Below are positions 12,812-38,196 of a DNA stretch of 39,408 nucleotides, one piece after another (position 1 is the first letter of the stretch; the number at the start of each line of letters is the position of its first letter). Origin of the DNA: an uncultured Bacteroidales bacterium (GTDB lineage Bacteria; Bacteroidota; Bacteroidia; Bacteroidales; Paludibacteraceae); assembly GCA_900321605.1 (NCBI GenBank), contig ONWR01000005.1, positions 1-39,408 of the forward strand. Reading direction: 5' to 3'. The translations under genes were made by a program, and so were the position numbers. Below the pieces are notes generated by a model that had not been told where the DNA came from, did not search any database, and was given only the letters and a program-made list of their open reading frames with translations.

Positions 12812-13288
12812 TTAAGCCTTGACGTTCTCCAAAAGCCATTCCACCGCTTCTGAATATCCGTTTGTGCCTTTTCCTATAATTGTATGTGCGCACACGTCCG
12901 TGAGCAGGCTCTGTTGCCGGAACGGTTCGCGTTTTGTAATGTCGCTTATATGTACTTCCACTACCGGTATACGGCTGTCCTCAACGGCATCGCGCAGCGC
13001 TACACTCGTGTGGGTGTAGCCGCCCGCGTTGAGTACGATACCAAGATATTGGTCGTTAGTCGTTGGTCGTTGGTCGTTGGTCGTTGGTCCAGTCAGGGCC
13101 TCGTTGGCTTCCTGAATCCAGTCTATCAGGTCACCCTCGTGGTTCGATTGACGGTATAGGAAATGGGTATCCCGCCAGCGTCGCTGGATATCCAACAAAA
13201 TCTGTGCCATTGTGCGCGTACCATATATATCAGGCGCGCGTAAACCCAAACGGTTCAGATTCGGTCCGTTGAGAATTAAAATTTTCAA
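12812..13288 (-). CDS. aroQ: Type II 3-dehydroquinate dehydratase with embedded heptamer array
   Basis: Third step of the shikimate pathway. The motifs LILNGPNLNRLGLRAPDIYG (catalytic Tyr22), QSNHEGDLIDWI, IVLNAGGYTHTSVALRDA and VVEVHISDITKREPFR are complete. Residues 67-80 (GPTTNDQRPTTNDQ) have no counterpart in ordinary AroQ and are exactly encoded by six heptamers at 13049-13090 (42 bp, so in frame). The insert falls in the loop before the strand carrying NAGGYTHTS. The start is TTG (complement of 13286-13288) and lies in another array. It is co-directional with rho upstream and the receptor downstream. Family certain; effect of the insert unknown. Confidence 0.93.
   Translation of the reverse strand: MKILILNGPNLNRLGLRAPDIYGTRTMAQILLDIQRRWRDTHFLYRQSNHEGDLIDWIQEANEALTGPTTNDQRPTTNDQYLGIVLNAGGYTHTSVALRDAVEDSRIPVVEVHISDITKREPFRQQSLLTDVCAHTIIGKGTNGYSEAVEWLLENVKA
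13049..13090. repeat. In-frame heptamer array TTGGTCG inside aroQ, 6 units (42 bp)
   Basis: Units TTGGTCG, TTAGTCG, TTGGTCG x3, TTGGTCC. Read on the aroQ strand it encodes GPTTNDQRPTTNDQ (residues 67-80). Confidence 0.97.
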
Positions 13289-13320
13289 TTATCAATTATC
13301 AATTATCAATCATCAATCAT
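13286..13320. repeat. Heptamer array, CAATTAT family, 5 units (35 bp)
   Basis: Units CAATTAT x3, CAATCAT x2. It is the entire junction between rho and aroQ: the first unit contains the TTG start of aroQ and the last the TGA stop of rho. Confidence 0.96.
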
Positions 13321-15083
13321 CTTGCTCCGTTAACAGCCAAGAGGAACTCGTCATTGTCCTGCGTACGCTCCATATAGGCTTTGAGTTTCTCCATCGCTTC
13401 CTGACCGTTCATGTCGCTGAGTTGCTTGCGGATCTGCCACATGCGGCTCAGTACGTCTGCCGGTAAGAGCAGGTCGTCACGACGGGTGCTCGAAGCAGGT
13501 ATATCCACAGCCGGGAAGATGCGGCGGTTAGCAAGCTTACGATCAAGCTGCAACTCCATGTTACCGGTTCCTTTGAACTCCTCAAAGATGAGGTCGTCCA
13601 TCTTCGAACCTGTCTCGGTAAGAGCTGTAGCGATGATGGTGAGACTACCGCCGTTCTCGATGTTACGAGCAGCTCCGAAGAAACGTTTTGGCTTGTGAAG
13701 CGCTTGAGCTTCCACACCACCGGAGAGCACTTTTCCGCTCGAAGGAGCTACGGTGTTGTATGCACGAGCCAGACGGGTGATAGAGTCGAGTAGGATGACT
13801 ACGTCGTGTCCGCTCTCCACCAGACGTTTGGCTTTCTCGTGAACGATATTCGCTACGCGAACGTGGTTCTCGGCAGGCTCATCAAAGGTCGAAGCGATCA
13901 CTTCGGCATCGACGCTACGAGCCATGTCGGTCACCTCCTCCGGACGCTCATCGATGAGCAGAACGATCATATAGACTTCGGGGTTGTTTTTCAGAATAGC
14001 GTTTGCTAACTCCTTGAGCAGCACGGTCTTACCGGTCTTCGGCTGCGCAACAATGAGTCCACGTTGACCCTTACCAATAGGCGAGAAAAGGTCAATCATA
14101 CGGACGCTGAGCGAGTCGTTATGACCCGTACAGAGTTTGAATTTCTGATCAGGGAAGAGCGGCGTGAGGTTCTCAAAAGCGACACGTCTCTTAGCGAGTT
14201 CAGGCGACAGACCGTTGATGCGGATGACCTTGTCCATCGGGAAAAACTTATCCGGCTGCGGGTTCACGCGAATAGAGCACTCTACGGTGTCACCGGGTTT
14301 GAGTCCGTATTGACGCACCTGATCCTTGCTCACGTACACATCGTCCGGGCTTGGCAGGTAGTTATAATCCGCCGAGCGCAGGAATCCATATCCGTCCGGA
14401 GCTACTTCCAGCGTACCCATAGCAATCACGTTCTCGCCCAGATCCGGCATGACGAACTTCGTCTCTTCCTTCTCCTCTTCCTGTTCGAAAGGTATCTCTT
14501 CCTGTGCAGCAGGAGTCTCTTCTTTTACCACAGGTGCTTCTTCCGGAGCAACGGTCGCTGCCTCGGGTTGTACTTTCCTCGGTCTTCCGCGTTTCTTAGC
14601 CGGTTGCTCAACTACGGGAGCTTCGCTTGCGGCTTGTGGCTCTTGTGCCGGAGTCGGTACTTCTGCCTGCTCTGCGTTAACGGCTTCTGTTCTCACATCT
14701 TCTGCCATCGGCTTAGCAGCAATCACCGTCTTGTTGGGCTTGTGATTGTTTGCCTTGAGGTCTTCCTGCATCTTTGCCATCTCCTCTTTCTCGGAACCGA
14801 CAGTAGCTAAAACTTGTCCGCTCTTGAGGTTAGAGGTGTTCACCTTGGCAGCATTGCGTTTCACACCACGGGCACGCTCACGCTTACTGGGCAAACCAGC
14901 TGCCTCACGGGCATCCTCTTTAGCTTGAACCACTGCTGCGCGGTTGTCCGCTTGCGCGTCTAAGATAGCGTAACTGATCTCACGTAATGATTGGCTGCGT
15001 CGAGGTTTAAGACCCATACTAACCGCAATCTCACGTACTTCGTCGAGCGTCATACGCTCGAGTTTTTGTAATTCGTATTGCAT
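13317..15083 (-). CDS. rho: Transcription termination factor Rho with long disordered insert
   Basis: RNA helicase that ends transcription. 588 residues: N-terminal Rho_N domain (1-45), a Lys/Ala/Pro/Glu-rich linker (about 50-212) that includes an AT-hook-like KKRGRPRK (163-170) and an acidic stretch EEEKEE, a cold-shock RNA-binding domain (about 213-290), then the RecA-like ATPase with P-loop AQPKTGKT (346-353) and Walker [16 protein letters not shown]. The extra linker is typical of Bacteroidota Rho; in Bacteroides thetaiotaomicron this region has been reported to drive phase separation. A promoter at 15147-15178 serves it, and aroQ, the receptor, porT-like and lipoprotein genes follow closely. 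Confidence 0.96.
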
Positions 15084-15146
15084 AAATCAAATAATAAATT
15101 TTCTTGGAAAATTCAAAAAAAAGAATGCCTTTTTTCAAATCGGGTG

Positions 15147-15178
15147 CAAAGTTACAACTTTTTTTTTACATATGCAAA
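15147..15178 (-). promoter_or_regulatory. Promoter for rho
   Basis: Minus-strand TTTG (complement of 15175-15178), an A-rich spacer of 20 nt, TAACTTTG (complement of 15147-15154) and GCACCCGATTTG at the start region. Confidence 0.86.
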
Positions 15179-15400
15179 TAAAAAGTGAAAAAATATTGAC
15201 CTTTTGCGATTTTGGGCTATAATTGATGGACGATTGAAACTGAAAATATGCGTCATTTTGAGTGCCTTAAAATTGTTTGTAATTGTTTGTATATGAGGTA
15301 GTTATATGCTGTTTATAGTTAGTATGGTCTAGGATACCTCTGTTCCGAGTCTTTAGTAGTCCCTTTTTAGGTCTGTTTTGAAGGTTAGGGGGGTAGTGGA
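15179..15400. other. Non-coding spacer between apbE and rho
   Basis: Together with 15084-15178 this leaves about 360 bp without a gene. I see the rho promoter, a directly repeated TTGTTTGTAA-like string near 15275-15290, and the octamer array at the right edge. No credible small gene or terminator was found. Confidence 0.6.
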
Positions 15401-15456
15401 GTGGATTAGTGGATTAGAGGATTAGAGGATTAGAGGATTAGTGGGTTAGTGGGTGA
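15401..15456. repeat. Octamer array GWGGATTA, 7 units (56 bp) overlapping the end of apbE
   Basis: Units GTGGATTA x2, GAGGATTA x3, GTGGGTTA, GTGGGTGA. The apbE stop codon (complement of 15446-15448) lies in unit 6, so the last residues of ApbE are encoded by the array. Confidence 0.93.
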
Positions 15457-16528
15457 GTGTCCAGTTTGGAGAGGTGAGGGTAATGAGGGTGTCGGATTGC
15501 GCGGATGAAGGGGACGCAGATTGCGTGGATGAATGGGACGCAGATTGTGCGGATGAAGGGGACGCAGATTGTGCGACGATGAGGTAACAGGCGGCATCAC
15601 CGGCACGTTGAATGAGATCGAGGGCTTCTTCTGCTCCCAGGACCATACAGGCTGTAGCCAAAGCGTCGGCACGCATACACGAGGAGCTGACGACTGTTGC
15701 GCTAAGGAGGGAGTGTTGTACCGGATAGCCGGTTCGCGGATCAATGGTGTGACTGCGACGAACGGAACCATCGTAATAGAAATTGCGGTAGTTACCGCTG
15801 GTAGCCATGCAGATGTCTGAAACGGCAAGAATCTCTTGGAGTTCTTCCTGCGCACCTTCGTTGTTGAGGTTTGGTTTGGTGATACCAATACGCCATGGTT
15901 CCCCTTTGGCGTTGATGCCATGTGCGACTACTTCTCCGCCTATGTCCACGAGGTAGTTGTCACAACCGTTTGCACGGAGGACGGAAGCTATCATGTCGCA
16001 GGCTTGTCCTTTAGCAACAGCTCCGCCGTCAATCTGTACACGCGGGTCGGACTTAAGTACATGGTGATCAATGAGTTGCACTTTGTTGAAGCCCACAAAT
16101 GCGCGTAGCGAATCGATGGTCTGAGTGCAGATGGACGCTATTTGGTCGGATTTTCTACCAAAGCCGAACGCTTTGACCAAAGGAGCAACGGTAATGTCAA
16201 ATGCTCCGTTGGAGAGGGTATAGACCCGTTCTGCTTCCGCCCACATGGTCTCGAAAGCGGTGTTAGTGAGGGTGTCACGGTTTGCGTTGACGGCAGAGAG
16301 GATAGAGTGAGGATTGAAAAGGCTTAGGCTGTTGTCAAACTCGGTAAAAGCGGCTTTGATGCTGTCTTCGAGATCCGCAGTAGCTTCGTAACGGATGTTA
16401 TAATAGGTTCCGAAGACTTTACCTTGGTTATGGTAGTACGACGATTTGGGAGCTTCATCGAGCCCCCAAATCAAAATCGCACATACGACGACGCCTAATA
16501 AGGCGGTTATGGTCTTTCTTTTATCCAT
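15446..16528 (-). CDS. apbE: FAD:protein FMN transferase (ApbE) with repeat-derived C-terminal tail
   Basis: Covalently attaches FMN to Thr/Ser of target flavoproteins outside the cytoplasm. 360 residues: a single N-terminal membrane segment (ITALLGVVVCAILIWGL), then GTYYNIRYEAT, IDGGAVAKGQACDMIASVL, YLVDIGGEVVAHG and the C-terminal SHTIDPRTGYPV with metal-binding Asp. The conserved enzyme ends near residue 325. The tail holds 8-residue repeats QSASPSSA encoded by 24-bp repeats, then array-encoded LTH. Its start overlaps by one base the stop of the upstream barrel gene, so it is coupled to it. Its flavoprotein target is not in the window. Confidence 0.92.
   Translation of the reverse strand: MDKRKTITALLGVVVCAILIWGLDEAPKSSYYHNQGKVFGTYYNIRYEATADLEDSIKAAFTEFDNSLSLFNPHSILSAVNANRDTLTNTAFETMWAEAERVYTLSNGAFDITVAPLVKAFGFGRKSDQIASICTQTIDSLRAFVGFNKVQLIDHHVLKSDPRVQIDGGAVAKGQACDMIASVLRANGCDNYLVDIGGEVVAHGINAKGEPWRIGITKPNLNNEGAQEELQEILAVSDICMATSGNYRNFYYDGSVRRSHTIDPRTGYPVQHSLLSATVVSSSCMRADALATACMVLGAEEALDLIQRAGDAACYLIVAQSASPSSAQSASHSSTQSASPSSAQSDTLITLTSPNWTLTH
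15501..15572. repeat. Three 24-bp direct repeats in apbE
   Basis: Units at 15501-15524, 15525-15548 and 15549-15572 differ at one to four positions. In the apbE frame they give repeated QSASPSS(A/T). The string resembles the CGCAGATTGCGCGGAT-type repeats common in Bacteroidota intergenic DNA. Confidence 0.9.
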
Positions 16529-17409
16529 TAGAACCAGAATCCAAGACCGATAGTACCATTCAAGCGCTGAGAAGCACCCAGTTTGTAATCACCGGCAGTC
16601 CAAGCAAAGCAGTTGTCTTTGTTGATCTCCCACGTATTGATGCTACCCAAAGCGAAGAGCTCAATGTCCACGATCTCAGCTACGTTCCATGTTTTGCCGA
16701 GACGAAGCGAGATGTTGTTGACCGCAAATTTTCCTTCGTAGTCGGTATAGAGACTCTTCCAAGGAGTGAAACCGAGAGCTATAGCGAGTGTGATGTCGTG
16801 CTCGAACTCTGCTTCGTAACCAGCCTCGATATAGGTTGACCAAGCGCGTTTCGCTTTTACGTCACCATTACTGTACTCCTTATAGTACACGTCGTTTCCG
16901 GCAACCATCATGTGCCAGTCCACGTAGAGACCTTTGGCTTTGCAGAAATCACCAAAACGGAGTCCGACCATTACCTCGGTCTGGCTACCACCATCGTCCT
17001 CCAGTTTGGAGAAGAACGGAGTGCCGCCAAAATAGTAGTAATGAGTCATTCCAAGAGCAAGACCGTACACACGGAGGTTCACGGAGAAGTCCACTTCGGG
17101 AACGAAATAGGTGTTCGGGTTCATGTCATTCTCATCGGGATTCGGACGACCTTTGCGGAACACCCAGTCCGATGCACCAACATTACCCCACACATTGACA
17201 TCGAACTGCACTTTATCGGCAAGCGATACGAAACCGACCGATACGCTTGGTTGCAGACTCAAACCACCATTGTAGAGACCACGCCAGATATAGGAACTAA
17301 CTACCTCTGCTCCGGCTTCATAGGTGAAACGAGCTTTCGGGCTGCTTTCTTCAGCCATTACTGTTGCCGCCATGAGAACAGCGGCAAAAAGAGTAAAAAA
17401 TTTCTTCAT
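16528..17409 (-). CDS. Outer-membrane barrel protein with SYIWRG motif (Gcw_chp/TorF-like), copy 2
   Basis: 293 residues from the ATG complementary to 17407-17409 (MKKFFTLFAAVLMAATVMA signal peptide); a TTG four codons upstream is the alternative. Repeated amphipathic strands and the N-terminal motif VVSSYIWRGLYNGG match the putative porin family Gcw_chp (PF09694). It ends with the aromatic residues expected for BAM recognition (LGFWF). It is clearly a paralogue of the neighbouring barrel (shared YxWRGxYxGG, NVGxxDWxFR, FTPWKSxYTxxxGxFAVxNIxxxLxKxW). Substrate unknown. Confidence 0.78.
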   Translation of the reverse strand: MKKFFTLFAAVLMAATVMAEESSPKARFTYEAGAEVVSSYIWRGLYNGGLSLQPSVSVGFVSLADKVQFDVNVWGNVGASDWVFRKGRPNPDENDMNPNTYFVPEVDFSVNLRVYGLALGMTHYYYFGGTPFFSKLEDDGGSQTEVMVGLRFGDFCKAKGLYVDWHMMVAGNDVYYKEYSNGDVKAKRAWSTYIEAGYEAEFEHDITLAIALGFTPWKSLYTDYEGKFAVNNISLRLGKTWNVAEIVDIELFALGSINTWEINKDNCFAWTAGDYKLGASQRLNGTIGLGFWF

Positions 17410-17445
17410 TGTTTGTACCAAAAATGTTTGTTATTGTTATTTATT

Positions 17446-18763: not shown

Positions 18764-19693
18764 ATGAAACAAACTATTCCTATTATAGCGCTGATCATCT
18801 CTATGGTGATTTGGTCAGTAAGCGGTATTGCTATCAAGCATGCACTCGTCGTTCTACCTCCGTTTACGATGATTGTGATGCGGTTTGTACCGGCTGTTCT
18901 GTTGATGTTGATTATTGGTATTATTTGTCGCCATCATTCGTTGTTCTGTCTGCAAAAGATGGATTTGCGCGATTTGCCGCTTTTCCTTATTGCCGGAACG
19001 TGTCAACCGTTTTTGTACTATCTGTTGGAGACGTACTCGTACGCTGCGCTCAACAGTCCGACGATAGCGGAGACGCTGCTATCCACCAGTCCGTTGCTCA
19101 GTCCTATTTTTGCGGCTGTTTTATTAGGCGAACGGGTGACAAAATATAATATATGGGGTATTCTCATCTCTACTATTGGCGTTTTTGTATTAACGTTAGC
19201 CGGTGGAACGGATTATTCGATAGGCAGTTATTGGGGTGTGTTGTTGGCTTTTGCAGCCGTTTCTGCGGCGGTAGTGGACTCGATTATGATGCGCAAAGCA
19301 CCGCTTAGATACAGTTCGCTTTCTTTTGTTTTTTATACCCAGCTCATCAGTTTGATGTACTTTATTCCTATCTGGTGGATAAAAGAAGGACCGGAGGCGA
19401 TAAACAATTTGCAATTTACCATTCACCATTCACAATTAATGACTGCGCTGGGATGTGTGGCGTACCTGACTGTATTTGCAAGCGTGACGGCGTTTATTTT
19501 GTTCTGCTATGCGCTTCGTCAAGTAGGCGTGACACAAGCCAATGCGTTCAATAATATCCGTCCTGCTTTTACGGCACTTTGGATGTTTCTTTTCTTTGAT
19601 GAAATACTGCCTTGGGCGAAGTGGTTAGGCATCGTATTCATCATTTTTGGCCTTTTTATATGCCAAAAGCAAGAAAAAAAGCATAATTATTGA
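18764..19693 (+). CDS. DMT-superfamily (EamA) transporter with embedded heptamer array
   Basis: 309 residues from ATG 18764; an earlier ATG lies upstream of the promoter and is rejected. Ten hydrophobic helices in two EamA repeats; the first repeat includes WSVSGIAIKHALVVLPPFTMIVMRF and the end of the second LPWAKWLGIVFIIFGLFI. Drug/metabolite exporters of this family move small molecules such as amino acids; the substrate here cannot be told. Residues about 214-225 (NNLQFTIHHSQL), in the loop after helix 7, are encoded by a 35-bp heptamer array at 19405-19439. It stands alone, with a new promoter directly after it. Confidence 0.87.
   Translation: MKQTIPIIALIISMVIWSVSGIAIKHALVVLPPFTMIVMRFVPAVLLMLIIGIICRHHSLFCLQKMDLRDLPLFLIAGTCQPFLYYLLETYSYAALNSPTIAETLLSTSPLLSPIFAAVLLGERVTKYNIWGILISTIGVFVLTLAGGTDYSIGSYWGVLLAFAAVSAAVVDSIMMRKAPLRYSSLSFVFYTQLISLMYFIPIWWIKEGPEAINNLQFTIHHSQLMTALGCVAYLTVFASVTAFILFCYALRQVGVTQANAFNNIRPAFTALWMFLFFDEILPWAKWLGIVFIIFGLFICQKQEKKHNY
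19405..19439. repeat. In-frame heptamer array CAATTTR/CCATTCA inside the EamA gene, 5 units (35 bp)
   Basis: Units CAATTTG, CAATTTA, CCATTCA, CCATTCA, CAATTAA. It is read on the strand that lacks stop codons in all frames; the other strand contains TGA. Confidence 0.85.
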
Positions 19694-19762: not shown

Positions 19763-20578
19763 ATGAATTATTTGAATACTTCTTTTGGCGACCTGCTGTT
19801 CATCATGTTCTTGGTGGGTTTTGTAGTGTTCGTATCGCTTTATTTTGTCGATGCAGGCTATGGTAAGATGCGTTCCGAGAAATGGGGACCGTCTATGAAC
19901 AACAAAGCGGGATGGCTTCTGATGGAGTGCCCGGTGTTCTTCGTGGTGTGGTATGAGTATTTCAAGGCAATTGGCAGTCCGGATCCGGTAGTGTCTGAGG
20001 CTGTGAAGAATGCGCCGTATTGGTTGTTCTTCCTGTTCTTTGAGTTCCATTATTTCCAGCGATCGTTTATCTTCCCGTTCTTGCTCAAAGGTAAGAGTAA
20101 GATGCCGTTTGCGATTATGATCCTGTCGGTAGTATGGAACCTGATCAATGGATATATACAGGGTTATTTCCTGTTCCATATTGCTCCGACTGATCCGTAC
20201 TACTCGCAGTTGTACACCTCGTCATGGCTGACTGATCCGCGTTTCATCATCGGAACGGTGATTTTCTTCACGGGATGGATCATCAATATGCATTCCGACT
20301 ACGTGATACGTCATCTGCGCAAACCCGGCGACACGAATCACTATCTGCCGAAAAAGGGAATGTACCGATTTGTGACGAGTGCCAATTATTTGGGTGAGAT
20401 CACGGAATGGCTTGGTTTTGCTATTCTTACTTGGTCGTTTGCCGGATTGCTGTTCTTCTGGTTCAGTTGCTGCAACCTCGTGCCTCGTGCCAATTCGATT
20501 TATCATAAGTACGAGGAGGAGTTCCCCGATGAGTTTGACCGCAAGAAACTGAAACGTATTATTCCGTTTATTTATTAG
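19763..20578 (+). CDS. 3-oxo-5-alpha-steroid 4-dehydrogenase family membrane protein (DUF1295/steroid reductase)
   Basis: 271 residues, about six to seven membrane helices. The C-terminal part carries the steroid 5-alpha-reductase signature: YFQRSFIFPFLLKG, NMHSDYVIRHLRKPG, YLGEITEWLGFAI and NLVPRANSIYHKYEEEFPDEFDRKKLKRIIPFIY. Members use NADPH to reduce the C4-C5 double bond of 3-oxo steroids or related enones. It heads a run with an Old-Yellow-Enzyme-like gene and an SDR gene. In gut Bacteroidales such as Parabacteroides and Odoribacteraceae, comparable genes (5AR, 5BR, 3-beta-HSDH) convert 3-oxo-delta4 bile acids to allo forms; whether this locus does the same is inference. Confidence 0.85.
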   Translation: MNYLNTSFGDLLFIMFLVGFVVFVSLYFVDAGYGKMRSEKWGPSMNNKAGWLLMECPVFFVVWYEYFKAIGSPDPVVSEAVKNAPYWLFFLFFEFHYFQRSFIFPFLLKGKSKMPFAIMILSVVWNLINGYIQGYFLFHIAPTDPYYSQLYTSSWLTDPRFIIGTVIFFTGWIINMHSDYVIRHLRKPGDTNHYLPKKGMYRFVTSANYLGEITEWLGFAILTWSFAGLLFFWFSCCNLVPRANSIYHKYEEEFPDEFDRKKLKRIIPFIY

Positions 20579-20616
20579 TCGTTAGTCGATAGTCGATAGT
20601 CGTTAGTCGATAGTCC
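20575..20616. repeat. Heptamer array, WTAGTCG family, 6 units (42 bp)
   Basis: Units TTAGTCG x2, ATAGTCG x2, TTAGTCG, ATAGTCC. It begins one base before the stop codon of the reductase gene (TAG within the first unit) and ends 5 bp before the start of the next gene. Confidence 0.97.
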
Positions 20617-20621
20617 AAAAT

Positions 20622-20987
20622 ATGGCACATAATTATAAAGAATTAGAAGTTTGGAAGCGCGCTATGTCGATTGCTAAGTCGATATATACGATGACTAAGA
20701 AGTTTCCTATCGATGAAAAGTTTGGACTTACGTCTCAAATTCAAAGGGCGGCAGTGTCTATCGCCTCCAACATTGCAGAAGGAGCAGGACGAGGAACGGA
20801 TAAAGATTTCGTTCATTTCCTAAATATTGCGTTAGGATCTGCTTTTGAGGTAGAAACCCAGGTTCTTTTATCTTTAGATTTGGGATATTTATCCAATGAA
20901 GATAGTAAAGATATATTAGATAATATTCGCGTGATTCAACCACAATTGAATGCATTAATCAAAAAATATGGAGAAATTATTCTATGA
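20622..20987 (+). CDS. Four-helix-bundle protein (S23/23S rRNA IVS protein family)
   Basis: 121 residues: MAHNYKELEVWKRAMSIAKSIYTMTKKFP, YGLTSQ-like FGLTSQIQRAAVSIASNIAEGAGRG, FVHFLNIALGSAFEVETQVLLSLDLGYL. This is the TIGR02436/PF05635 family, first seen inside intervening sequences of 23S rRNA genes and related to the Avd protein of diversity-generating retroelements. Its cellular role is unknown. Its TGA stop overlaps the ATG of the next gene (ATGA). It interrupts an otherwise redox-enzyme cluster and is bracketed by heptamer arrays of one family in opposite orientations, which suggests insertion. Confidence 0.92.
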   Translation: MAHNYKELEVWKRAMSIAKSIYTMTKKFPIDEKFGLTSQIQRAAVSIASNIAEGAGRGTDKDFVHFLNIALGSAFEVETQVLLSLDLGYLSNEDSKDILDNIRVIQPQLNALIKKYGEIIL

Positions 20988-22213
20988 AAAATAATACCAA
21001 TGAGGCATTGGCGGACCAACGACAAACGACCAATGACCAACGACTATTTACCCCGTTTCAATTGGGACCCATTACATTGCGGAATCGAATCATCCGTTCT
21101 GCAGCCTTTGAGAACATGGCGCGACATAATGCACCGACCAAGGAATTGCAGGACTATCACGTCTCCGTAGCGCGTGGTGGAGTTGGCATGACGACTGTTG
21201 CCTATTGCGCTGTGGACTTGAGCGGCGTGTCGTTTGACGGTCAGCTCTATGTCCGTCCGGAGATCATTCCCGATATGAAAAAGATGACCGACGCTATTCA
21301 TGCGGAGGGCGCGAAAGCCAGTATCCAGTTGGGACACTGCGGTAATATGACGCATATCTATACTTGTCATTGTATACCGGTGAGTGCAGATACGTGGTTC
21401 AATCTCTATAGTCCGACGATCCATCGCCGTCTCAAAGTGGCGGAGATCAAGAACCTCGTTAAGAAATTCGGCGAGGCGGTGGACTGGGCGCGTGAGTGCG
21501 GTTTTGACTGCGTGGAGATACATGCAGGACACGCCTATCTCATCTCGCAGTTCATTAGTCCGCGTACGAACCACCGTCATGACGAGTACGGAGGCTCTTT
21601 TGAGAACCGCGTACGATTCATGAACGAGATCCTCGACGAGGTGATGGTTCATGCGAAAGACGATATGGCGGTAGTGGTCAAGACCAATATGTGGGATGAC
21701 TGCTGGCATGGTGTCAGCGTTGAAGAGGGTATCAAAGTAGCCAAAGAGATAGCCAAGCACAAGGTGCATGGTATCGTTCTCTCCGGCGGAACCGTGAGCC
21801 GTTCGCCAATGACTATCCTTGGCGGCGCTATGCCGTACAAGACCTTGGCGCACTATATGAACATGAAATCATTCTGGTGGCTCAAGGCGGCACTTAATAT
21901 CCCGGGTGTAGCTGCTATCATGACGCCGACCGTGCCTTTCAAAGAGCTCTATTTCATGGAGAAAGCAAAGATCTTCCAGAAAGAGATCACCGACACGCCT
22001 CTTATTTATGTCGGCGGCGTGCAGAGCGGAGATAACTGCCAGCAGATCATGGACGAGGGTTTTGACCTGTTCCAGATAGCGCACGTGCTCATTAAGGATC
22101 CGGATTTTGTGAAGCATGTGCAGGAGAACCCGCATTACCATGCCGGTTGCGGACGATCCAACTACTGTGTGGGACGTATGTACTATGAAATGTCACGAGT
22201 GTGTGGAGCGTGA
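20984..22213 (+). CDS. NADH:flavin oxidoreductase / Old Yellow Enzyme family, probable frameshift near the 3' end
   Basis: FMN-dependent TIM-barrel enoate reductase of 409 residues. The conserved start is LFTPFQLGPITLRNRIIRSAAF (from residue 21). The active-site region around 180-212 (EIHAGHAYLISQFISPRTN, then DEYGGSFENR) is typical of the family. Residues 11-22 (DQRQTTNDQRLF) come from a heptamer array and precede the conserved domain. The frame ends abruptly at RMYYEMSRVCGA; a +1 frame from about 22185 continues as MKCHECVERDGEVIAP and then a helix, ending at 22307 just before the next gene. That looks like the true C-terminus. Size and family resemble steroid 5-beta-reductase/BaiCD-like enzymes; substrate unproven. 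Confidence 0.87.
   Translation: MKNNTNEALADQRQTTNDQRLFTPFQLGPITLRNRIIRSAAFENMARHNAPTKELQDYHVSVARGGVGMTTVAYCAVDLSGVSFDGQLYVRPEIIPDMKKMTDAIHAEGAKASIQLGHCGNMTHIYTCHCIPVSADTWFNLYSPTIHRRLKVAEIKNLVKKFGEAVDWARECGFDCVEIHAGHAYLISQFISPRTNHRHDEYGGSFENRVRFMNEILDEVMVHAKDDMAVVVKTNMWDDCWHGVSVEEGIKVAKEIAKHKVHGIVLSGGTVSRSPMTILGGAMPYKTLAHYMNMKSFWWLKAALNIPGVAAIMTPTVPFKELYFMEKAKIFQKEITDTPLIYVGGVQSGDNCQQIMDEGFDLFQIAHVLIKDPDFVKHVQENPHYHAGCGRSNYCVGRMYYEMSRVCGA
21014..21048. repeat. In-frame heptamer array GACCAAC in the oxidoreductase N-terminus, 5 units (35 bp)
   Basis: Units GACCAAC, GACAAAC, GACCAAT, GACCAAC, GACTATT. Translated as DQRQTTNDQRLF (residues 11-22). Inverse orientation to the array at 20575-20616. 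Confidence 0.95.
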
Positions 22214-27512: not shown

Positions 27513-27567
27513 AATCTGAATTCTGAATTCTGAATTCTGAACTCTGACATCTGACATCTGAACTCTG
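27509..27567. repeat. Heptamer array CTGAATT family, 8 units plus 3 bp
   Basis: Units CTGAAAT, CTGAATT x3, CTGAACT, CTGACAT x2, CTGAACT, then CTG. It starts at the gcvP stop codon and ends 7 bp before yitT. It is the inverse of the family at 3253-3294. Confidence 0.96.
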
Positions 27568-30647: not shown

Positions 30648-30941
30648 GCATTTTGAAATAAATCAATCGAAAATCTTCAAATTTGCGCCAACATATCTCG
30701 AAATCAGGATAAGTATGGTCCAAATACGGACGTATATCGGTGTTATCACGAGGGTATCCTAGACCTTAGCCGTACTCATCCTGTACTCTCCGTGTACTCT
30801 CATGCTTAGGTGATGCTAAGGATTCGGTAAGCACTTAGTAAGGTTAATGAATAAGGAATGAATAAATAATATATAAGGAATATATAAGCTTTTCCGGTCT
30901 GAAAATGCCTGAGAGGTATAATAAAAAAATGACATGACACT

Positions 30942-31071
30942 TTTGACACTTTTGGCACTTTCTATCTTTTTGATAGTAGAGCCATGATTTACAAGTATCA
31001 AAATGTTAATGATCGAACGGAAAAAATAGGGTATTATTGACATTTTGAAAGAAAGTGCCAAAAGTGTCAAA
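30942..31071. repeat. Perfect 21-bp inverted repeat, arms 88 bp apart
   Basis: Left arm 30942-30962 reads TTTGACACTTTTGGCACTTT plus C; right arm 31051-31071 is its exact reverse complement. The left side also has a tandem TGACACTTT. The enclosed 88 bp are AT-rich with no ORF. It could be the ends of a miniature element or a transcribed hairpin. Confidence 0.85.
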
Positions 31072-31107
31072 GTGCCAATGCAAATTTTTATAGTTCAAAA
31101 TGACTTT

Positions 31108-31220
31108 TCCTAAAATTAGTAGACAGTTTTTTGATTATTTTCCTAAGTTAGTAGACACTCTTCCTAACTTTGTTGACACTTTCCTAAAAAAGTAGACAAT
31201 CATCCTAAATTAGTTGACAG
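31108..31220. mobile_element. Five-copy CCTAAnTTAGTNGACA repeat cluster, IS21-end-like remnant
   Basis: Five degenerate copies at about 31108, 31141, 31163, 31183 and 31204, spaced 20-33 bp. On the minus strand each reads TGTCWACTAANTTAGG, and the outermost copy begins with TGT (complement of 31217-31219). Multiple short terminal repeats beginning TGT are characteristic of IS21-family ends. No istA/istB is present, so this would be a solo end or remnant. Binding sites for a regulator or replication iterons are alternatives. Confidence 0.5.
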
Positions 31221-31609: not shown

Positions 31610-32155
31610 TTATAATCTTTCCAATTCAATGACTTCTAAATTATCAATTTTGAAACCATCGATGGTAAAGCGCAAAAGCGTTTGGCAGGGTTGCCATCCT
31701 TGCTTTCCGGCCGCTCCCGGATTCATGGTGAGGAACTTATAAAGTGGATCGTATTGCACCTTCAGAATATGGCTATGACCGCAGACAAATAAGTCGATGA
31801 GGTCGCTGGTCGCTGGTCGTTGGTCGTTAGTCGATTGAGTTTTTGCTTCCAAACTTTTGCGGAACCACGGAATGAGCCAAGGGTTATAATGTCCGGGATA
31901 GCCGCCAATATGGGTCATAAAGACGTTGACATCTTCCACCCGGAAACGGTAGAACTCCGAAAGCGAATAGCGCACATCGCCGGAGTCCATATTGCCAAAG
32001 ACAGCCCTTGTGGGTTTGAACTCACGAAGACGATGAAGTACCATGTCGGAGCCGATGTCTCCGGCATGCCAAATCTCATCTACATCCTTGAAATGCTCAA
32101 AGATGCGTTTGTCCAACAAACCGTGAGTATCGGATAAAATGCCTATTCTTGTCAT
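31610..32155 (-). CDS. Calcineurin-like phosphoesterase (YfcE/MJ0936 type) with embedded array
   Basis: 181 residues. All metal-binding motifs are present: ILSDTHG (7-13), HAGDIGSD (30-37), FGNMDSGD (53-60), THIGGYPG (81-88) and VCGHSHI (124-130). The family hydrolyses phosphodiesters in the cytoplasm; substrate unknown. Residues 108-118 (STNDQRPATSD), between the third and last motifs, are encoded by five heptamers at 31801-31835. It is the last gene of the pheT unit, and its ATG shares a base with a heptamer array. Confidence 0.92.
   Translation of the reverse strand: MTRIGILSDTHGLLDKRIFEHFKDVDEIWHAGDIGSDMVLHRLREFKPTRAVFGNMDSGDVRYSLSEFYRFRVEDVNVFMTHIGGYPGHYNPWLIPWFRKSLEAKTQSTNDQRPATSDLIDLFVCGHSHILKVQYDPLYKFLTMNPGAAGKQGWQPCQTLLRFTIDGFKIDNLEVIELERL
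31801..31835. repeat. In-frame heptamer array GGTCGYT inside the phosphoesterase gene, 5 units (35 bp)
   Basis: Units GGTCGCT x2, GGTCGTT x2, AGTCGAT. On the coding strand it gives STNDQRPATSD (residues 108-118). Confidence 0.95.
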
Positions 32156-32189
32156 TAGTCGTTGGTCGTTAGTCGTTAGTCGTTGGTCA
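32155..32189. repeat. Heptamer array TTRGTCG, 5 units (35 bp)
   Basis: Units TTAGTCG, TTGGTCG, TTAGTCG x2, TTGGTCA. It is exactly the junction of two minus-strand genes: its first base is the A of the phosphoesterase ATG and its last three are the TGA of the GldF-like gene. Confidence 0.97.
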
Positions 32190-32852
32190 TTTCTTTGTGA
32201 GGCGGTCTATTGTGAAGATGGCTCCTATGATAGCAATAATAGCAATCGAAACAAAGAAGACTACATCGCGGAGATCTAAGACACCGCGGGAAAGGGAAGA
32301 GTAGTGGTCTTGGAAAAGCACCCAATACAACACAAAGCAACTCAATGCGGCACAGATGAAACAAACGATCTGACTTTTGCTGAAAGTCGCGCAAAGCAAA
32401 CCGATTGCCATGAACGTGCTGCTCAAGAGGATCAAGCCGATGAACGAACCCAAGAATGCTCCGCTATCCAGATTACCCATCGGTTCAGCCATGTATGCTA
32501 CCACAAAATAGTGTACAAAACATGGCAGCAGACCGATTAACACTAACGTCCATGCCGCAAAATACTTACCGAGCATAATACGTGTTAGCGAGACGGGTTT
32601 GGTGCGAATAAGATCCCAAATGCCTGACTGTCGCTCTTCGGATAGTAAGCGCATCGTCAAAGCAGGACAGAGCAGCATGAAGAGCCACGGACTCAATTGG
32701 AACAATCCGTCCACTTGGGCATACCCGGAATCAATGATGTTCCATTGCCCGGGTATCACCCAAAGGAAGAGACTGATTGCCAATTGGTAAAGCCCAATAA
32801 CGATGTACGCAATCGGCGTAGAGAAATAATATGATAATTCCTTGCGGAACAT
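32187..32852 (-). CDS. gldF: GldF-like ABC-2 type permease
   Basis: 221 residues with six membrane helices. FSTPIAYIVIGLYQLAISLFLWVIPGQWNIIDSGYAQVDGLFQLSPWLFMLLCPALTMRLLSEERQSGIWDLI matches my memory of GldF, the permease of the GldAFG transporter linked to gliding and to type IX secretion in Flavobacterium. In most genomes gldG follows; here a phosphoesterase does, and no gldA is in the window. In non-gliding Bacteroidales the transporter's role is unclear. Confidence 0.8.
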   Translation of the reverse strand: MFRKELSYYFSTPIAYIVIGLYQLAISLFLWVIPGQWNIIDSGYAQVDGLFQLSPWLFMLLCPALTMRLLSEERQSGIWDLIRTKPVSLTRIMLGKYFAAWTLVLIGLLPCFVHYFVVAYMAEPMGNLDSGAFLGSFIGLILLSSTFMAIGLLCATFSKSQIVCFICAALSCFVLYWVLFQDHYSSLSRGVLDLRDVVFFVSIAIIAIIGAIFTIDRLTKK

Positions 32853-32878
32853 TTGAGATTTGAAATTTGAGATTTAAT
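32851..32878. repeat. Heptamer array ATTTGAR, 4 units (28 bp)
   Basis: Units ATTTGAG, ATTTGAA, ATTTGAG, ATTTAAT. It overlaps the start codon of the GldF-like gene (32850-32852) and contains the stop codon of the symporter gene (complement of 32874-32876). Confidence 0.93.
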
Positions 32879-34172: not shown

Positions 34173-34194
34173 ATTGTTTTGTTTTTGTTGTTTG

Positions 34195-34232
34195 CTAGTC
34201 TCTATAGTCTCTCTAGTCTCTCTAGTCTTCTA
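34195..34232. repeat. Nonamer array CTAGTCTCT, 4 units plus overlap
   Basis: Units CTAGTCTCT, ATAGTCTCT, CTAGTCTCT, CTAGTCTTC. The prfC stop codon (complement of 34230-34232) begins at its edge. Confidence 0.9.
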
Positions 34233-35726
34233 GAACTCGCTCGTGAAATGGAACGTGATATGTTTGTAGTCCTGTTGCGCCATGGAAAGGACATAAGCGG
34301 AGTCCGCCATGAAGACATCACGGCCTTCTTTGTCCGTAGCCATATACTGCGCTTTACGTTTCTTGAACATGTCCAGCTCGGCATCGTCGTCGGACTCAAT
34401 CCAGCAGGCTTTGTACATCTGGAGCGGTTGCCATTTGCATTTAGCTTGGTACTCGTGTTCAAGGCGGTATTGGATAACCTCGAACTGGAGTTGTCCCACT
34501 GTTCCGATGATCTTACGACCGTTAAGTTGGCTCACAAAGAGCTGCGCTACGCCTTCATCCATGAGTTGGTTGATACCCTTATCGAGCTGTTTCTGCTTCA
34601 AGGGGTCGGCGTTGTCAATGTATTTGAACATCTCCGGCGAGAAGGACGGAAGACCTTTGAAATGCAAGTGTTCGCCGGAAGTGAGTGTGTCTCCGATCTT
34701 GAAGTTTCCGGTATCGGGCAGACCCACTACATCTCCTGCAAACGCTTCATCAACCGTCTCTTTCTTTTGCGCCATGAAGCAGGTCGGAGCAGCAAAACGC
34801 ATCTGTTGATCCTTGCGCACGTGATAATAATAGGTGTTGCGCAGGAACTTACCGGAACAGATCTTGAAGAACGCGATGCACGAGCGGTGGTTCGGATCCA
34901 TGTTCGCGTGGATCTTAAAGCAGAAGGCTGTGAACTTATCTTCCATCGGTTCTACAGTACGCTCTTCGGCGGTAACAGGAAGAGGTGAGGGTGCATTCTC
35001 TACGAGAAAATCAAGGAGTTCTTGCACACCGATGGTCTTGTATGCTGAACCGAAAAAGACAGGTGCAAGATCACCACGCAGGTATGCTTCTTTGTCAAAC
35101 TCCGGATATACACCATCAATCATTTCAAGGTCTTCCTCCAGTTTCGGAGTAAGTTCTGACGGGCGATTGTTGAGCGCGAAGACAGACTCGAATTTCAATC
35201 CTTGTCCGTTCGCCCAAGTTACTGGCGTGCAATGAATACCAAGTTCTTTTTCCGCTTCGTCCATGAGATCGAACGGATCTTTACCCTCGCGATCCATCTT
35301 GTTCATGAACACCATGACCGGTGTCTTACGCATTCGGCATACTTCCATGAGTCGGCGAGTCTGCGCTTCGACACCTTTCGCGGAGTCGATGACGACGATG
35401 GCTGAGTCCACGGCAGTAAGCGTACGGAAAGTGTCTTCCGCAAAGTCTTGGTGACCAGGAGTATCGAGGATGTTGATATGATGGTCGGCGTAGTCGAATC
35501 CCATGACGGAAGTGGCTACGGAAATACCACGTTGTTTCTCGATCTCCATCCAGTCCGAGGTGGCAGTCTTGCGGATCTTATTGGACTTGACTGCTCCGGC
35601 TACGTGAATAGCACCTCCATAGAGCAGGAGTTTCTCGGTCAAAGTCGTCTTTCCGGCATCCGGGTGCGATATGATCGCAAAAGTGCGACGTTTTAATATT
35701 TCGTTTTGATCAGCGGAGGGTAGCAT
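34230..35726 (-). CDS. prfC: Peptide chain release factor 3
   Basis: GTPase that recycles RF1 and RF2 after peptide release. 498 residues, a little shorter than the 529 of E. coli. The G1 motif is SHPDAGKT (20-27), G3 is DTPGH and G4 is NKMD. IEKQRGISVATSVMGFDY is the switch I region; the C-terminal domain includes YHVRKDQQMRF and VGQLQFEVIQYRLEHEY. Its ATG lies inside the end of pheT (17-bp overlap). Confidence 0.96.
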   Translation of the reverse strand: MLPSADQNEILKRRTFAIISHPDAGKTTLTEKLLLYGGAIHVAGAVKSNKIRKTATSDWMEIEKQRGISVATSVMGFDYADHHINILDTPGHQDFAEDTFRTLTAVDSAIVVIDSAKGVEAQTRRLMEVCRMRKTPVMVFMNKMDREGKDPFDLMDEAEKELGIHCTPVTWANGQGLKFESVFALNNRPSELTPKLEEDLEMIDGVYPEFDKEAYLRGDLAPVFFGSAYKTIGVQELLDFLVENAPSPLPVTAEERTVEPMEDKFTAFCFKIHANMDPNHRSCIAFFKICSGKFLRNTYYYHVRKDQQMRFAAPTCFMAQKKETVDEAFAGDVVGLPDTGNFKIGDTLTSGEHLHFKGLPSFSPEMFKYIDNADPLKQKQLDKGINQLMDEGVAQLFVSQLNGRKIIGTVGQLQFEVIQYRLEHEYQAKCKWQPLQMYKACWIESDDDAELDMFKKRKAQYMATDKEGRDVFMADSAYVLSMAQQDYKHITFHFTSEF

Positions 35727-38196
35727 TGAATTTCTCTTCGAATGTTGCCTTTAGGCGGTTCATAATATTCTCGATCTGTGTATCTTTGAGCGTGTTCTCT
35801 GCATCTTGGAGGATGAAGGAGAGGGCATAGGATTTCTTGCCTTCTTCGAGGTTCTTACCCTCATAGACATCAAACAGATAGACGTTCTTGAGCAGTTTCT
35901 TCTCCGTGGAGAAGGCAGCACGTGCGAGATCCGCGAACTCAACGGCTTTGTCCACGAGGAGCGCAAAGTCACGTTTCACCTCTGGGTATTTAGGCAGGTC
36001 GTTGATGACAGCTTTGTATTGTTTGTTCTGCTTGAGCAGTTGGTTCCAATCGAGGTCTGCGTAATACACTTCTTGGTCGATGTCAAAAGCTTTGAGCTGC
36101 TTGCGGTTGACGATACCGATGAAGCCGAGTGCCTTGCCGTTAGCGGCTTTGAGGACGAGACCATCCGAGAAGAGTTCGTTCTCCAGACGCTCTACGGTCG
36201 TTTTGGAGAGATCGACTCCGAGACGCACAAGGATATTGTTCACATATGCGTGGAGCTGGTAGAATGTGGTTTTCTCTTCCTTGCGTACCCAAGTCTGTGC
36301 GGCTTTATTACCGGTGAGCCAAAGACCCAAATGCGGTTCCTCGGAATACTCGACGAGCGAGTTCTCGGGGTTGTGCTCACGTGCAGCAGGATTTGCTTTG
36401 TAATGGTAACAGTTACCAAACTCGTAGAACTTGAGGTCGCTGTTCTTACGGTTGGCGTTACGAGCGATGGACTCCAGACCGCCAAAGAGCAGGGTCTGAC
36501 GCATCACACCGAGATCTTGGCTCAAGGGGTTCATGATCTTGACGCACGTATCGAGCGTCAGTTGGGTCAGCGGCTCGTAGTACGACACTTTGGTAAGCGA
36601 GTTATTGAGGATCTCATTGAAGCCCTGTGCGGTGAGTTGCTCTGCAATCTTACGACGCAGTTTCTCGGGATCCGGCTTGAGACCATATGCAAGGCTGGTG
36701 TTCAGTTTCTCAGGAAACTCGACATTGTCATATCCATAGATACGGAGAATATCTTCTACGACGTCGCACTCACGCTGTACGTCCACACGGTAACGCGGTA
36801 CTTCCAACTGCCATGAGTCGCCATGTTTGGCGACTATATTGATCTCCAATGCGTGGAGGATCGTTTCGATCGTGTCCTCACCGATGGCTTTGCCGATAAG
36901 AGAGTTGACGCGATTGATGTCAATAGTAACAGGCCACGGCTTGAGAAGCTCAGGAGTGGCGGTATGGTCTAGGATTCCTCCGATGTACTCTGCATTTGAG
37001 AGCGTCTTGATCAGGAGAGCAGCCCGTTTGAGGATGTAGAGTGTGTTGCAGGGATCACAACCACGCTCGTAACGGAAAGAAGCGTCCGTCTGGAGCTGGT
37101 GACGACGACTGGTCTTGCGGATGGTCACTGGGTCGAAATAGGCTGACTCCAAGAAAATGTTCTTGGTATTTTCGGTTACACCGCTCTCAAGTCCGCCAAA
37201 GACACCGGCAATACACATTGCTTCTTCTTTGTTGGCAATCATCAGATCGCGGCTGTCCATCTCACGCTCTACGCCATCGAGGGTAACGAATTTCTCGCCT
37301 TGGCGAGCATAGCGAACATGGATCTCGTTGCCCTTTATCTTGTCTGCATCGAAGGCGTGGAGCGCTTGTCCGCACTCGTGGAGGACGAAGTTAGTGACAT
37401 CGACGATGTTGTTAATCGGACGCAGACCGATAGCGAGCAGGCTGTTCTTGAGCCAATCCGGTGATTCTTTTACCTCCACACCTTTGATATAGAGACCAGA
37501 ATAACGCGGAGCAGCGTCCGGAGCGTCCACGAAGACGCTTATTGGTCGTTGGTCATTAGTCGTTGGTAGTTGGTCGAATTCCTCTACAGAGGGTTTGGTG
37601 AGTGCAACTTCCTGTCCGTGGGCTTTGTAGTACGCATAGAGATCGCGTGCTACGCCGTAGTGAGAAGCGGCGTCGGAACGGTTTGGCGTAATGTCCACCT
37701 CGATGATGGTATCGTCCTGCACATTATAATACTCACGTGCGGGCATACCCACGCGCGTATCGGCAGGCAGCACGATGATACCTGCATGGTCGGAACCCAC
37801 ACCGATCTCATCTTCAGCACAGATCATACCAAAGGAATCTTCACCACGCAGTTTGCCTTTCTTGATAGTGAAGGACTGATCTCCGTCATAGAGAACCGTT
37901 CCGATAGTAGCCACAATGACTTTCTGTCCGGCAGCCACGTTCGGTGCTCCGCAAACGATCGGCAGCGGTTCTCCCTCGCCGATATTCACTTTGGTGATAT
38001 GCAAGTGGTCGGAATTAGGGTGGGGTTCACAACTCAACACTTCTCCCACTACGAGACCTTTCAGACCACCTTTGATGGTTTCTACGGTCTCCACTGTACC
38101 CACTTCCAAACCGATAGAAGTAAGAATTTTTGCTACAGTCTCAGCGTCATCTGTCAACGCAATGTAGCGTTTTAACCAATTGTACGAAATATTCAT
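35710..38196 (-). CDS. pheT: Phenylalanine-tRNA ligase beta subunit with embedded array
   Basis: 828 residues. The tRNA-binding (EMAP-like) domain is at about 40-150 (LVVGEVLSCEPHPNSDHLHITKVNIG), the B3/B4 editing domain at about 225-395, B5 at about 415-485 and the FDX-ACB anticodon-binding domain at about 735-828 (PKYPEVKRDFALLVDKAVEF). Residues 208-218 (DQLPTTNDQRP) in the linker before B3/B4 are encoded by five heptamers at 37542-37576. pheS is not in the window. It heads the unit pheT-prfC-symporter-gldF-phosphoesterase, with a promoter at 38246-38276. Confidence 0.96.
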   Translation of the reverse strand: MNISYNWLKRYIALTDDAETVAKILTSIGLEVGTVETVETIKGGLKGLVVGEVLSCEPHPNSDHLHITKVNIGEGEPLPIVCGAPNVAAGQKVIVATIGTVLYDGDQSFTIKKGKLRGEDSFGMICAEDEIGVGSDHAGIIVLPADTRVGMPAREYYNVQDDTIIEVDITPNRSDAASHYGVARDLYAYYKAHGQEVALTKPSVEEFDQLPTTNDQRPISVFVDAPDAAPRYSGLYIKGVEVKESPDWLKNSLLAIGLRPINNIVDVTNFVLHECGQALHAFDADKIKGNEIHVRYARQGEKFVTLDGVEREMDSRDLMIANKEEAMCIAGVFGGLESGVTENTKNIFLESAYFDPVTIRKTSRRHQLQTDASFRYERGCDPCNTLYILKRAALLIKTLSNAEYIGGILDHTATPELLKPWPVTIDINRVNSLIGKAIGEDTIETILHALEINIVAKHGDSWQLEVPRYRVDVQRECDVVEDILRIYGYDNVEFPEKLNTSLAYGLKPDPEKLRRKIAEQLTAQGFNEILNNSLTKVSYYEPLTQLTLDTCVKIMNPLSQDLGVMRQTLLFGGLESIARNANRKNSDLKFYEFGNCYHYKANPAAREHNPENSLVEYSEEPHLGLWLTGNKAAQTWVRKEEKTTFYQLHAYVNNILVRLGVDLSKTTVERLENELFSDGLVLKAANGKALGFIGIVNRKQLKAFDIDQEVYYADLDWNQLLKQNKQYKAVINDLPKYPEVKRDFALLVDKAVEFADLARAAFSTEKKLLKNVYLFDVYEGKNLEEGKKSYALSFILQDAENTLKDTQIENIMNRLKATFEEKFNATLR
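37542..37576. repeat. In-frame heptamer array TTGGTCG inside pheT, 5 units (35 bp)
   Basis: Units TTGGTCG, TTGGTCA, TTAGTCG, TTGGTAG, TTGGTCG. On the pheT strand it encodes DQLPTTNDQRP. Confidence 0.96.

Follow-up and report, generated by a model that had tools for sequence, protein, structure and literature searches.

The window analysed here, a stretch of 39,408 nucleotides from an uncultured Bacteroidales bacterium, contains short tandem arrays of seven-nucleotide units both within and between its protein genes. Four arrays of the CGACYAA type are read in frame in the genes for AroQ, PheT, a metallophosphoesterase and an Old-Yellow-Enzyme relative (OYE), and the places given for them in a preliminary description of the sequence are confirmed by the coordinates and the encoded peptides. 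The solo array in aroQ (13049–13089, minus strand) encodes GPTTNDQRPTTNDQ within a type II dehydroquinase (12812–13288, minus strand; Pfam DHquinase_II, 12812–13282 scanned). In pheT (35710–38196, minus strand; Pfam PheT domains), a solo array at 37542–37576 (minus strand) supplies DQLPTTNDQRP between the tRNA_bind and B3_4 domains, and a third solo array (31801–31833, minus strand) is read as STNDQRPATSD in the phosphoesterase gene (31610–32155, minus strand; Pfam Metallophos_2). The OYE gene (20984–22213, plus strand; Pfam Oxidored_FMN) carries a GACCAAC array (21014–21044, plus strand) that yields DQRQTTNDQRL near the start of the protein, and its relatives begin without this insert. A further CGACYAA array runs from the permease stop codon to the phosphoesterase start codon (32151–32188, minus strand). 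Other heptamers are also present: the CATTCAC-type array in the EamA gene (19405–19437, plus strand), read as LQFTIHHSQL and correctly located beforehand under the unit CCATTCA, an AATTATC array between rho and aroQ (13280–13321) and a TCTGAAA array between gcvP and the gene that follows it (27507–27567), with no strand assigned to the last two. Allowing up to two mismatches, CGACCAACGACCAA is matched 21 times in the window compared with 0.29 expected, and 346 times in the assembly compared with 10 for the reversed pattern.

These arrays belong to a much larger population. In a sample of 786,035 of the 2,315,634 bases of the genome (34%), 185 period-7 arrays were found, compared with 2 in one shuffled copy that served as the control. 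Gene-interior arrays account for 61 of the 185 and are spread over 49 of 587 genes called by a simple home-made gene caller. Only 13 of these 61 lie within one mismatch of CGACCAA. The earlier view of one repeat in four genes thus holds for the arrays themselves and is too narrow in scope, since many heptamer families occupy the 49 sampled genes, and a single planted peptide in four genes is rejected. The DNA beside CGACYAA arrays is more similar than a random control in two pairs of loci and not clearly so in the others.

Comparison with relatives supports the proposal that the inserts arose as repeat DNA and are translated as part of the protein, and a conserved protein motif is rejected, as relatives lack the residues or have different ones. 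At these loops sister species have either a different heptamer or none; for example, the aroQ site in G138 has a different heptamer. The suggested placement in loops or ahead of the conserved domain also agrees with the comparison, with inserts in variable loops and AroQ having 16 residues more than the solved dehydroquinase 1gqo. As 7 and 3 share no factor, the unit encodes the same cyclic peptide in all three frames, an argument made at the outset that is arithmetically right. It had also been argued that the open strand is the one that is read. This is only partly right. CGACCAA has no stop codons on either strand, so its orientation in genes is not forced, yet in the genome sample 12 of the 13 arrays within genes have CGACYAA as the sense strand. 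Between co-directional genes in the same sample CGACYAA is sense in 11 of 21 arrays, which leaves a mechanistic strand bias unsupported; a bias found inside genes but not between them points to selection acting on the encoded peptide.

The array in the OYE gene had been listed together with the other three. It is the right-hand arm of a gene, unnoticed before, that lies between the left-hand neighbour and OYE, and this alters the most probable reading of the arrays. The gene (20622–20987, plus strand) encodes a 121-residue protein of the IVP/S23 family (PF05635, 23S_rRNA_IVP), with a Pfam E-value of 4.8e-40 and 136.5 bits against a curated cut-off of 33.8; PF05635 is its only Pfam match, with none to RAYT (Y1/HuH transposase). 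Upstream lies a TTAGTCG/TAGTCGA array (20576–20615, plus strand) that begins within the stop codon of this left-hand neighbour, the IVP stop codon overlaps the OYE ATG, and the downstream arm (21014–21044, plus strand) is the inverse of the upstream one. The full element, 20576–21044, therefore consists of a heptamer array, an IVP gene and the array inverted, and it sits between two protein genes rather than inside a 23S rRNA gene. Its RNA folds with the arms paired, and 2 of 100 shuffled sequences were as stable. An IVP gene is present at this site in the genus genomes G000, G132 and G257 and absent from 11 others; in G121 and G139 the site has neither IVP gene nor array. The IVP gene at this site may have been inherited rather than newly inserted. 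Inspection by eye identified no target-site duplication at the window site, and no movement was seen.

Inverted arms of this type are found at IVP genes in a wide range of bacteria. They were scored with a threshold of at least 14, picked after the first set, and in that set of relatives they occur at 17 of 30 IVP loci (with a few mis-called open reading frames, L258, L273 and L274 among others) compared with 1.5% of 519 control genes. For the next two sets and the combined set described below, as for the assignment of CGACYAA arms to IVP subfamilies, IVP genes were located by a profile built from the sequences of the relatives' set. Inverted arms flank 20 of 29 loci in CGACCAA-bearing genomes of many phyla (L313 being dropped at a contig end) compared with none of 87 controls, and 13 of 29 in Bacteroidota not picked for repeats compared with none of 58, where the 29 rows represent 28 loci (L374 is split, and L385 was dropped at a contig end). 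On named plasmids they are present at 7 of 10 IVP loci and at 1 of 10 neighbour genes; a search for IVP in phages gave no match. Most of the genomes compared are metagenome assemblies, as would suit an artefact of binning or assembly, or chimeric records, but with in-frame arrays in many separate assemblies and the same element build on named, complete plasmids of cultured strains, such an origin is hardly credible.

A combined set retained 77 IVP loci of 90, after removal of duplicates, short flanks and failed matches. Inverted arms flank 42 of them and direct arms 14, with 35 lacking inverted arms at the threshold. These proportions bear on the idea that the arrays came first and served as landing sites into or beside which IVP genes inserted. 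Arrays without a matching IVP gene are common, as this idea would predict; insertion into an array should, however, leave direct copies on both sides, so the excess of inverted flanks counts against it, as do the sites in G121 and G139 that lack both components. We consider this order of events improbable.

The sequence of the repeat unit is tied to the IVP subfamily. At 60% identity or more between IVPs, all 6 same-locus pairs and 5 of 8 pairs from different loci have arms that are alike, compared with 5 of 216 pairs at 45–60% identity and 16 of 1661 below 45%; in a reversed-arm control they are alike in none of 1891 pairs. CGACYAA arms are confined to the window's IVP subfamily in the relatives (3 of 30 loci) and also occur beside a 46% identical IVP in a proteobacterial MAG. 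Protein loops also contain in-frame inserts of a second kind, AVCQRSGL, which match the flanks found at a different IVP subfamily (G000, G121, G135), with best scores of 25 to 40 where shuffled inserts reach at most 9.5. In G000, 33 of 192 dispersed arrays have exactly the unit of the window IVP, compared with none of 133 in stretches of eight relatives.

Array density across the relatives does not track the number of IVP genes: G122 has no IVP match and 14.5 arrays per 100 kb, G121 has five IVP genes and 6.7 arrays per 100 kb, and G123 has four and no arrays in a 35-kb stretch. IVP number as the cause of density is unsupported by these counts. Of the 12 genus genomes with at least ten CGACYAA matches, nine contain no IVP that exceeds 51% identity to that of the window, and the other IVP genes of G000 lack the window's unit. 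With CGACYAA set aside, 21 of 185 G000 units match arms of sampled genus IVP genes, no better than the shuffled mean of 15.6, in a comparison whose ‘non-genus’ set wrongly includes a few loci of this genus; derivation of all G000 heptamer families from the sampled IVPs is thus unsupported. An automatic scan detected no period-7 unit beside G000 IVP2 and IVP4. By eye, an ATTTGAR array is seen upstream of IVP2, and IVP4 has GATGTAY arms resembling the ACATCGT/AATGTAC families; both are leads only.

Ordinary simple-sequence repeats offer a different explanation, in which slippage favours 7-nt steps, as proposed by Mrazek in 2007 (cited in the portion of PMC4679880 on these repeats), chance seeds grow and persist in intergenic DNA or tolerant loops, and IVP genes merely happen to be there. 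A period of 7 dominates for all kinds of unit, followed by 8 and 11; perfect runs become fewer as their copy number rises; many array-rich genomes have no matching IVP; and arrays recur at tolerant loops, with 11 of 40 sites common to different species. These observations speak for slippage. It accounts poorly for the inverted symmetry at IVP genes, for the link between unit and IVP subfamily, for a unit family that occupies dozens of unlinked sites in a single genome and none in samples of eight relatives, and for net length changes at insert sites that, on comparison with relatives, are often not multiples of 7. Array length and phase also argue against it: lengths have their mode at 28–35 nt and peak near 33 nt, the copy number of imperfect arrays peaks at 4–5 instead of falling from the detection limit upward, and 18 of 34 CGACYAA arrays begin at one of the seven phases. 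We consider slippage unlikely, though it deserves serious consideration.

It has also been suggested, in a proposal by MacGregor for TAACTGA (outlined in the relevant part of PMC4679880), that such heptamers act as regulatory or translational signals; here the arrays would be under selection and IVP would be a binding protein of the network. Intergenic arrays in the window do often abut stop and start codons. This reading is very improbable given the third of sampled arrays that are gene-interior, and because units differ between sister species at the same site, which is unexpected for a conserved signal.

Our preferred explanation, to which we assign a probability of about 0.6, is that IVP genes and heptamer arrays form one family of elements working like RAYT and REP, with the in-gene arrays as solo arms. 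A full-length member would consist of a heptamer array, an IVP (PF05635) gene and the same array inverted, a build that IVP genes of many bacteria share, with close IVP relatives tending to have a common unit. The TTNDQRP inserts would be solo copies of a short module, usually of ~33 nt or four to five heptamers. Such modules may spread through the genome and settle either between genes or within protein loops. Those inside genes would survive if they keep the reading frame, contain no stop codons and specify a hydrophilic peptide that the protein can tolerate. Neighbouring like arrays are not generally inverted: in G000, 4 pairs are inverted and 6 direct, and in the relatives 7 are direct. 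IVP would take the place of RAYT in this REP-like scheme, and we infer that it drives the spread of the arrays, its protein binding them as single-stranded nucleic acid and causing them to be copied, perhaps through template switching during replication or together with a reverse transcriptase, an enzyme that its relative Avd assists. We know of no catalytic activity for IVP. Several observations do not fit the scheme: the array-rich genus genomes without a close IVP, the array densities that do not follow IVP number, the G000 units that match IVP arms no better than shuffled ones, and the IVP loci with direct arms or without inverted ones.

A broader version is possible, although we would not favour it at present. 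Pentamers of the four-helix-bundle protein IVP/S23, a subunit number taken from the five chains in each of the solved relatives of the window protein (PDB 2gsc and 2rld), would be the agents of heptanucleotide repeats across bacteria, the ring recognizing an array and writing or copying it to new sites. Heptanucleotide repeats, the STRRs of cyanobacteria, the intervening sequences of rRNA and in-frame peptide inserts would then be products of one unrecognized class of mobile element that lacks a recombinase of its own. Perhaps the array has about five units because each subunit takes one. CGACYAA arrays do peak at five units, but period-8 arrays peak at four, so a constant length of ~33 nt would explain the data equally well.

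Cyanobacteria, Beggiatoaceae and others have long been known to carry heptamer repeats, to our knowledge with no agent assigned to them, and no function is known for the large and widespread S23/IVP protein family. What is new here is that heptamer families in the ordinary proteins of a gut bacterium also flank an IVP gene in mirror image. The link makes both the origin of the arrays and the function of IVP testable, and suggests that IVP-flanking heptamer families are an overlooked kind of mobile element. The repeat supplies housekeeping proteins with ready-made, frame-independent, hydrophilic loops, and the peptides supplied differ between sister species.

Several known systems share some of these features. 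The STRR of cyanobacteria and long simple sequence repeats are other cases of heptanucleotide repeats. Rickettsia palindromic elements are palindromes of roughly 100–150 nt that are read in frame at tolerant positions of unrelated proteins, and the likeness drawn in the preliminary description is a fair one for dispersed in-frame repeats. The present arrays differ in being shorter, non-palindromic tandem heptamers, frame-independent by their 7-nt period and tied to IVP genes. Tandem heptamers of four to six copies are described for TAACTGA in Beggiatoaceae, in intergenic DNA and some open reading frames (PMC4679880); within the sections concerned no gene is linked to them, whereas the arrays here are seen next to IVP genes and, in many cases, within housekeeping proteins. 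The 23S rRNA intervening sequences involve the same protein family, and that of Coxiella has tandem heptamers upstream of the S23p open reading frame and inverted repeats, in an account whose relevant passages do not mention dispersed solo arrays (PMC4990558); the present elements are situated between protein genes or within them and not in rRNA. PF05635 resembles the Avd protein of diversity-generating retroelements in sequence and structure, according to the pertinent part of PMC10053308, but no reverse transcriptase and no template/variable repeat adjoin the window IVP. The REP/REPIN repeats with RAYT (TnpA-REP), the subject of PMC3116915, PMC3733652 and PMC8266576, provide the model for our preferred explanation. 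In these systems short dispersed repeats of ~20–40 bp occur in many copies, a related gene stands between inverted copies of the repeat, as in the window element, and each repeat family goes with a protein subfamily. The repeats there are palindromes and those here tandem heptamers, the gene here encodes a four-helix-bundle protein without a known nuclease, and the copies here are read in frame inside genes.

The four heptamer arrays that the preliminary description placed inside unrelated proteins are all present where it put them, in frame and encoding RPTTNDQ-type peptides. The genes that carry them encode a type II dehydroquinase (AroQ), PheT, a metallophosphoesterase and an Oxidored_FMN protein (an Old-Yellow-Enzyme relative, OYE). 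With up to two mismatches allowed, CGACCAACGACCAA occurs 21 times in the window compared with 0.29 in shuffles, and 346 times in the 2,315,634-base assembly compared with 10 for the backward pattern. Repeats of other kinds are found in the window as well. A 24-nt tandem repeat at 15495-15575, near the 3' end of a minus-strand gene (15446-16528), gives eight-residue protein repeats around SASPSSAQ, and an intergenic stretch holds, at 31139-31219 and 30935-31078, long imperfect, non-heptamer repeats of TAGTAGACACTC and TGACACTTT units.

Eight contigs of this genome (G000), mostly long and totalling 786,035 bases (34%), were sampled for tandem repeats. Period 7 led the spectrum, with 185 arrays compared with 2 in one shuffled copy, followed by periods 8 (66 arrays) and 11 (44 arrays). 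The units are diverse: AACGACC and AACGACT, the commonest along with AAAAATT, make up 33 of the 185. A simple home-made caller identified 587 genes in this sample, 49 of which contain 61 arrays, and translation of each in-gene array gives the peptide that its unit encodes, for example QISNLKSQISN or YTIHHTPYTIHHTP. Of the CGACYAA arrays inside genes, 12 of 13 have CGACYAA on the sense strand, versus 11 of 21 of those between co-directional genes, a bias likely to be due to selection on the peptide. Unlinked CGACYAA arrays at C14:4649, C39:50172, C37:43629 and C14:7082 have composite spacers in common, CGACAGCCCTTGCATGGAC and CGACAGGCTCTGTCCCG; these resemble small modules of the CGACYAA family with hairpins. 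In another genome, G217, all 17 CGACYAA matches lie on the forward strand of contigs, unlike in other genomes.

The nearest genomes to G000 are members of the same genus; one of them, G257, and the record Bacteroidales bacterium UBA3742 are identical over 3,315 bases. The PheT loop that holds CGACYAA in the window genome carries ATTCAGA-type heptamers in G122 and G132, with net length unchanged, and an AAAATTA-type array in G125; no array was seen by eye in the remaining aligned rows (G130, which was misaligned, is excluded). Another heptamer occupies the position of the window array in aroQ of G138. The phosphoesterase loop is short and NYDDPNHR-like in six relatives, and G138 and G139 have diverged arrays in this gene with partly different units. 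Sixteen of the 61 in-gene arrays could be compared, over 35 gene pairs; net length changes include +9, +12, +15, +24, +27 and +33 nt and in most cases cannot be divided by 7, which means that sequence has been replaced locally as well as added. Among the fetched stretches, 26 of 184 single-copy orthologue groups bear arrays. Array sites are common to at least two species in 11 of 40 cases; 2000 random placements gave 2.0 on average and never more than 7.

The likely key to these arrays is a gene at 20622-20987 encoding a PF05635 protein (23S rRNA intervening-sequence protein; IVP). A TTAGTCG array lies upstream of it and the inverse, CGACYAA, downstream, the downstream copy being the OYE insert itself. 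The left-hand neighbour of the IVP gene adjoins OYE in 12 other genus genomes examined, of which only G132 has the IVP gene, with CGACYAA arrays on both sides; its IVP is 67% identical to that of the window, and the neighbours are 87% and 88% identical. G257 provides a third copy at this locus. The site is tight and lacks an array in G121 and G139, and holds other repeats in G126, G118 and G021. In G120 there is an inverted pair of its own AAAGAAAAAAGACCG family without IVP, which looks like a non-autonomous copy.

Inverted arms flank many IVP genes besides this one. The 200 nt upstream of each gene were aligned with the reverse complement of the 200 nt downstream, with a threshold score of at least 14. 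Arms were found at 17 of 30 IVP loci of relatives versus 1.5% of 519 control genes, and in genomes picked for three exact CGACCAA copies at 20 of 29 loci versus 0 of 87 control ORFs (17 of 24 when the five loci from the window's genus, L291, L302, L303, L305 and L314, are excluded). An even draw over the phylum, with no choice for repeats, gave 13 of 29 rows versus 0 of 58 controls. Named plasmid loci gave 7 of 10 versus 1 of 10 neighbour genes, the set being ten of 29 matching records, nine of them cyanobacterial and two near-copies. PF05635 itself is present in 34 of 40 CGACCAA genomes searched, 45 of 61 drawn over the phylum and 0 of 14 control genomes. Plasmid units include GGGAACA in Nostoc (NZ_CP054697.1 and NZ_CP040276.1), GGGTGTA in Calothrix (AP018208.1) and GGTGACA in Anabaena (NC_019429.1). 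The cas6-cas4 interval of a CRISPR operon holds an IVP gene with arrays in two cyanobacterial plasmids (NZ_CP112875.1, 46268-46627, L387; the Anabaena plasmid, 44265-44633, L390).

The repeat unit also follows the IVP subfamily. Arms were compared among 62 arm-bearing IVPs of the 106 examined. Pairs with at least 60% identity had like arms in 6 of 6 cases at one locus and 5 of 8 at different loci; the counts were 5 of 216 at 45-60% identity and 16 of 1661 below 45%, and reversed arms matched in 0 of 1891. Flank arrays are low in C (13%) when read on the upstream-arm strand. CGACYAA arms are limited to the window's IVP subfamily (3 of 30 loci; L353 adds just one marginal match, on one flank), and also adjoin a 46%-identical protein in a proteobacterial MAG. 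The exact unit of the window IVP accounts for 33 of 192 dispersed G000 arrays versus none of 133 in the stretches taken from eight relatives. Some loops carry AVCQRSGL-type peptides instead, encoded by AGCGAAGCGGTCTGTC, in genes at C37:79000 and C29:12716 of G000, G121 49994 and G135 38514. A match to this DNA lies beside the IVP genes of another subfamily (L257, L263, L278 and L277); the best scores in the four cases range from 25 to 40, and shuffled inserts score no more than 9.5. At least two IVP-flanking repeat families are therefore read inside proteins.

The modules have a preferred size. Across G000 and eight relatives, period-7 array length peaks at 28-35 nt (83 of 130 arrays in genes, 93 of 235 outside); among CGACYAA arrays, 24 of 45 comprise five complete units, and 18 of 34 share a single start phase out of seven. 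For perfect-copy runs taken alone, frequency falls as copy number rises. IVP relatives with solved structures consist of five chains, and a homopentameric ring is described in PMC4990558; our guess would be that each IVP subunit is matched by one heptamer unit.

Several results run against the IVP link. IVP number does not correspond to array density, and an IVP more than 51% identical to that of the window is missing in 9 of 12 genus genomes with at least 10 CGACYAA matches. Once CGACYAA is set aside, the units of G000 do not fit the sampled arms of the genus better than shuffled units do (21 of 185; shuffled mean, 15.6). Inverted arms are below threshold in 35 of 77 IVPs, like neighbouring arrays without IVP are not predominantly inverted, and no movement was observed. 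Either arrays outlast their IVP, or a second process also produces them.

Parts of the literature already touch on such repeats. PMC4679880 describes TAACTGA heptamers as mostly intergenic, with some within ORFs, and relates that in an earlier survey heptanucleotides outnumbered every other class in most genomes. In Coxiella, according to PMC4990558, tandem heptamers lie upstream of the S23p ORF in numbers that vary by strain, and a mobile-element idea is cited there; PF05635 is said in PMC10053308 to resemble Avd. In the part of the literature covered we found no statement on heptamer arrays flanking IVP genes in general, which is a weak negative. The preliminary description was correct in its observation, and its likening of the inserts to Rickettsia palindromic elements, by a different kind of repeat, holds only in part. 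A tentative extension, which we hold possible at less than even odds, is that heptamer repeats across bacteria at large are the work of IVP. We favour, with a probability of roughly 0.6, the reading that IVP genes and heptamer arrays form one element family, which would work in the manner of RAYT and REP.
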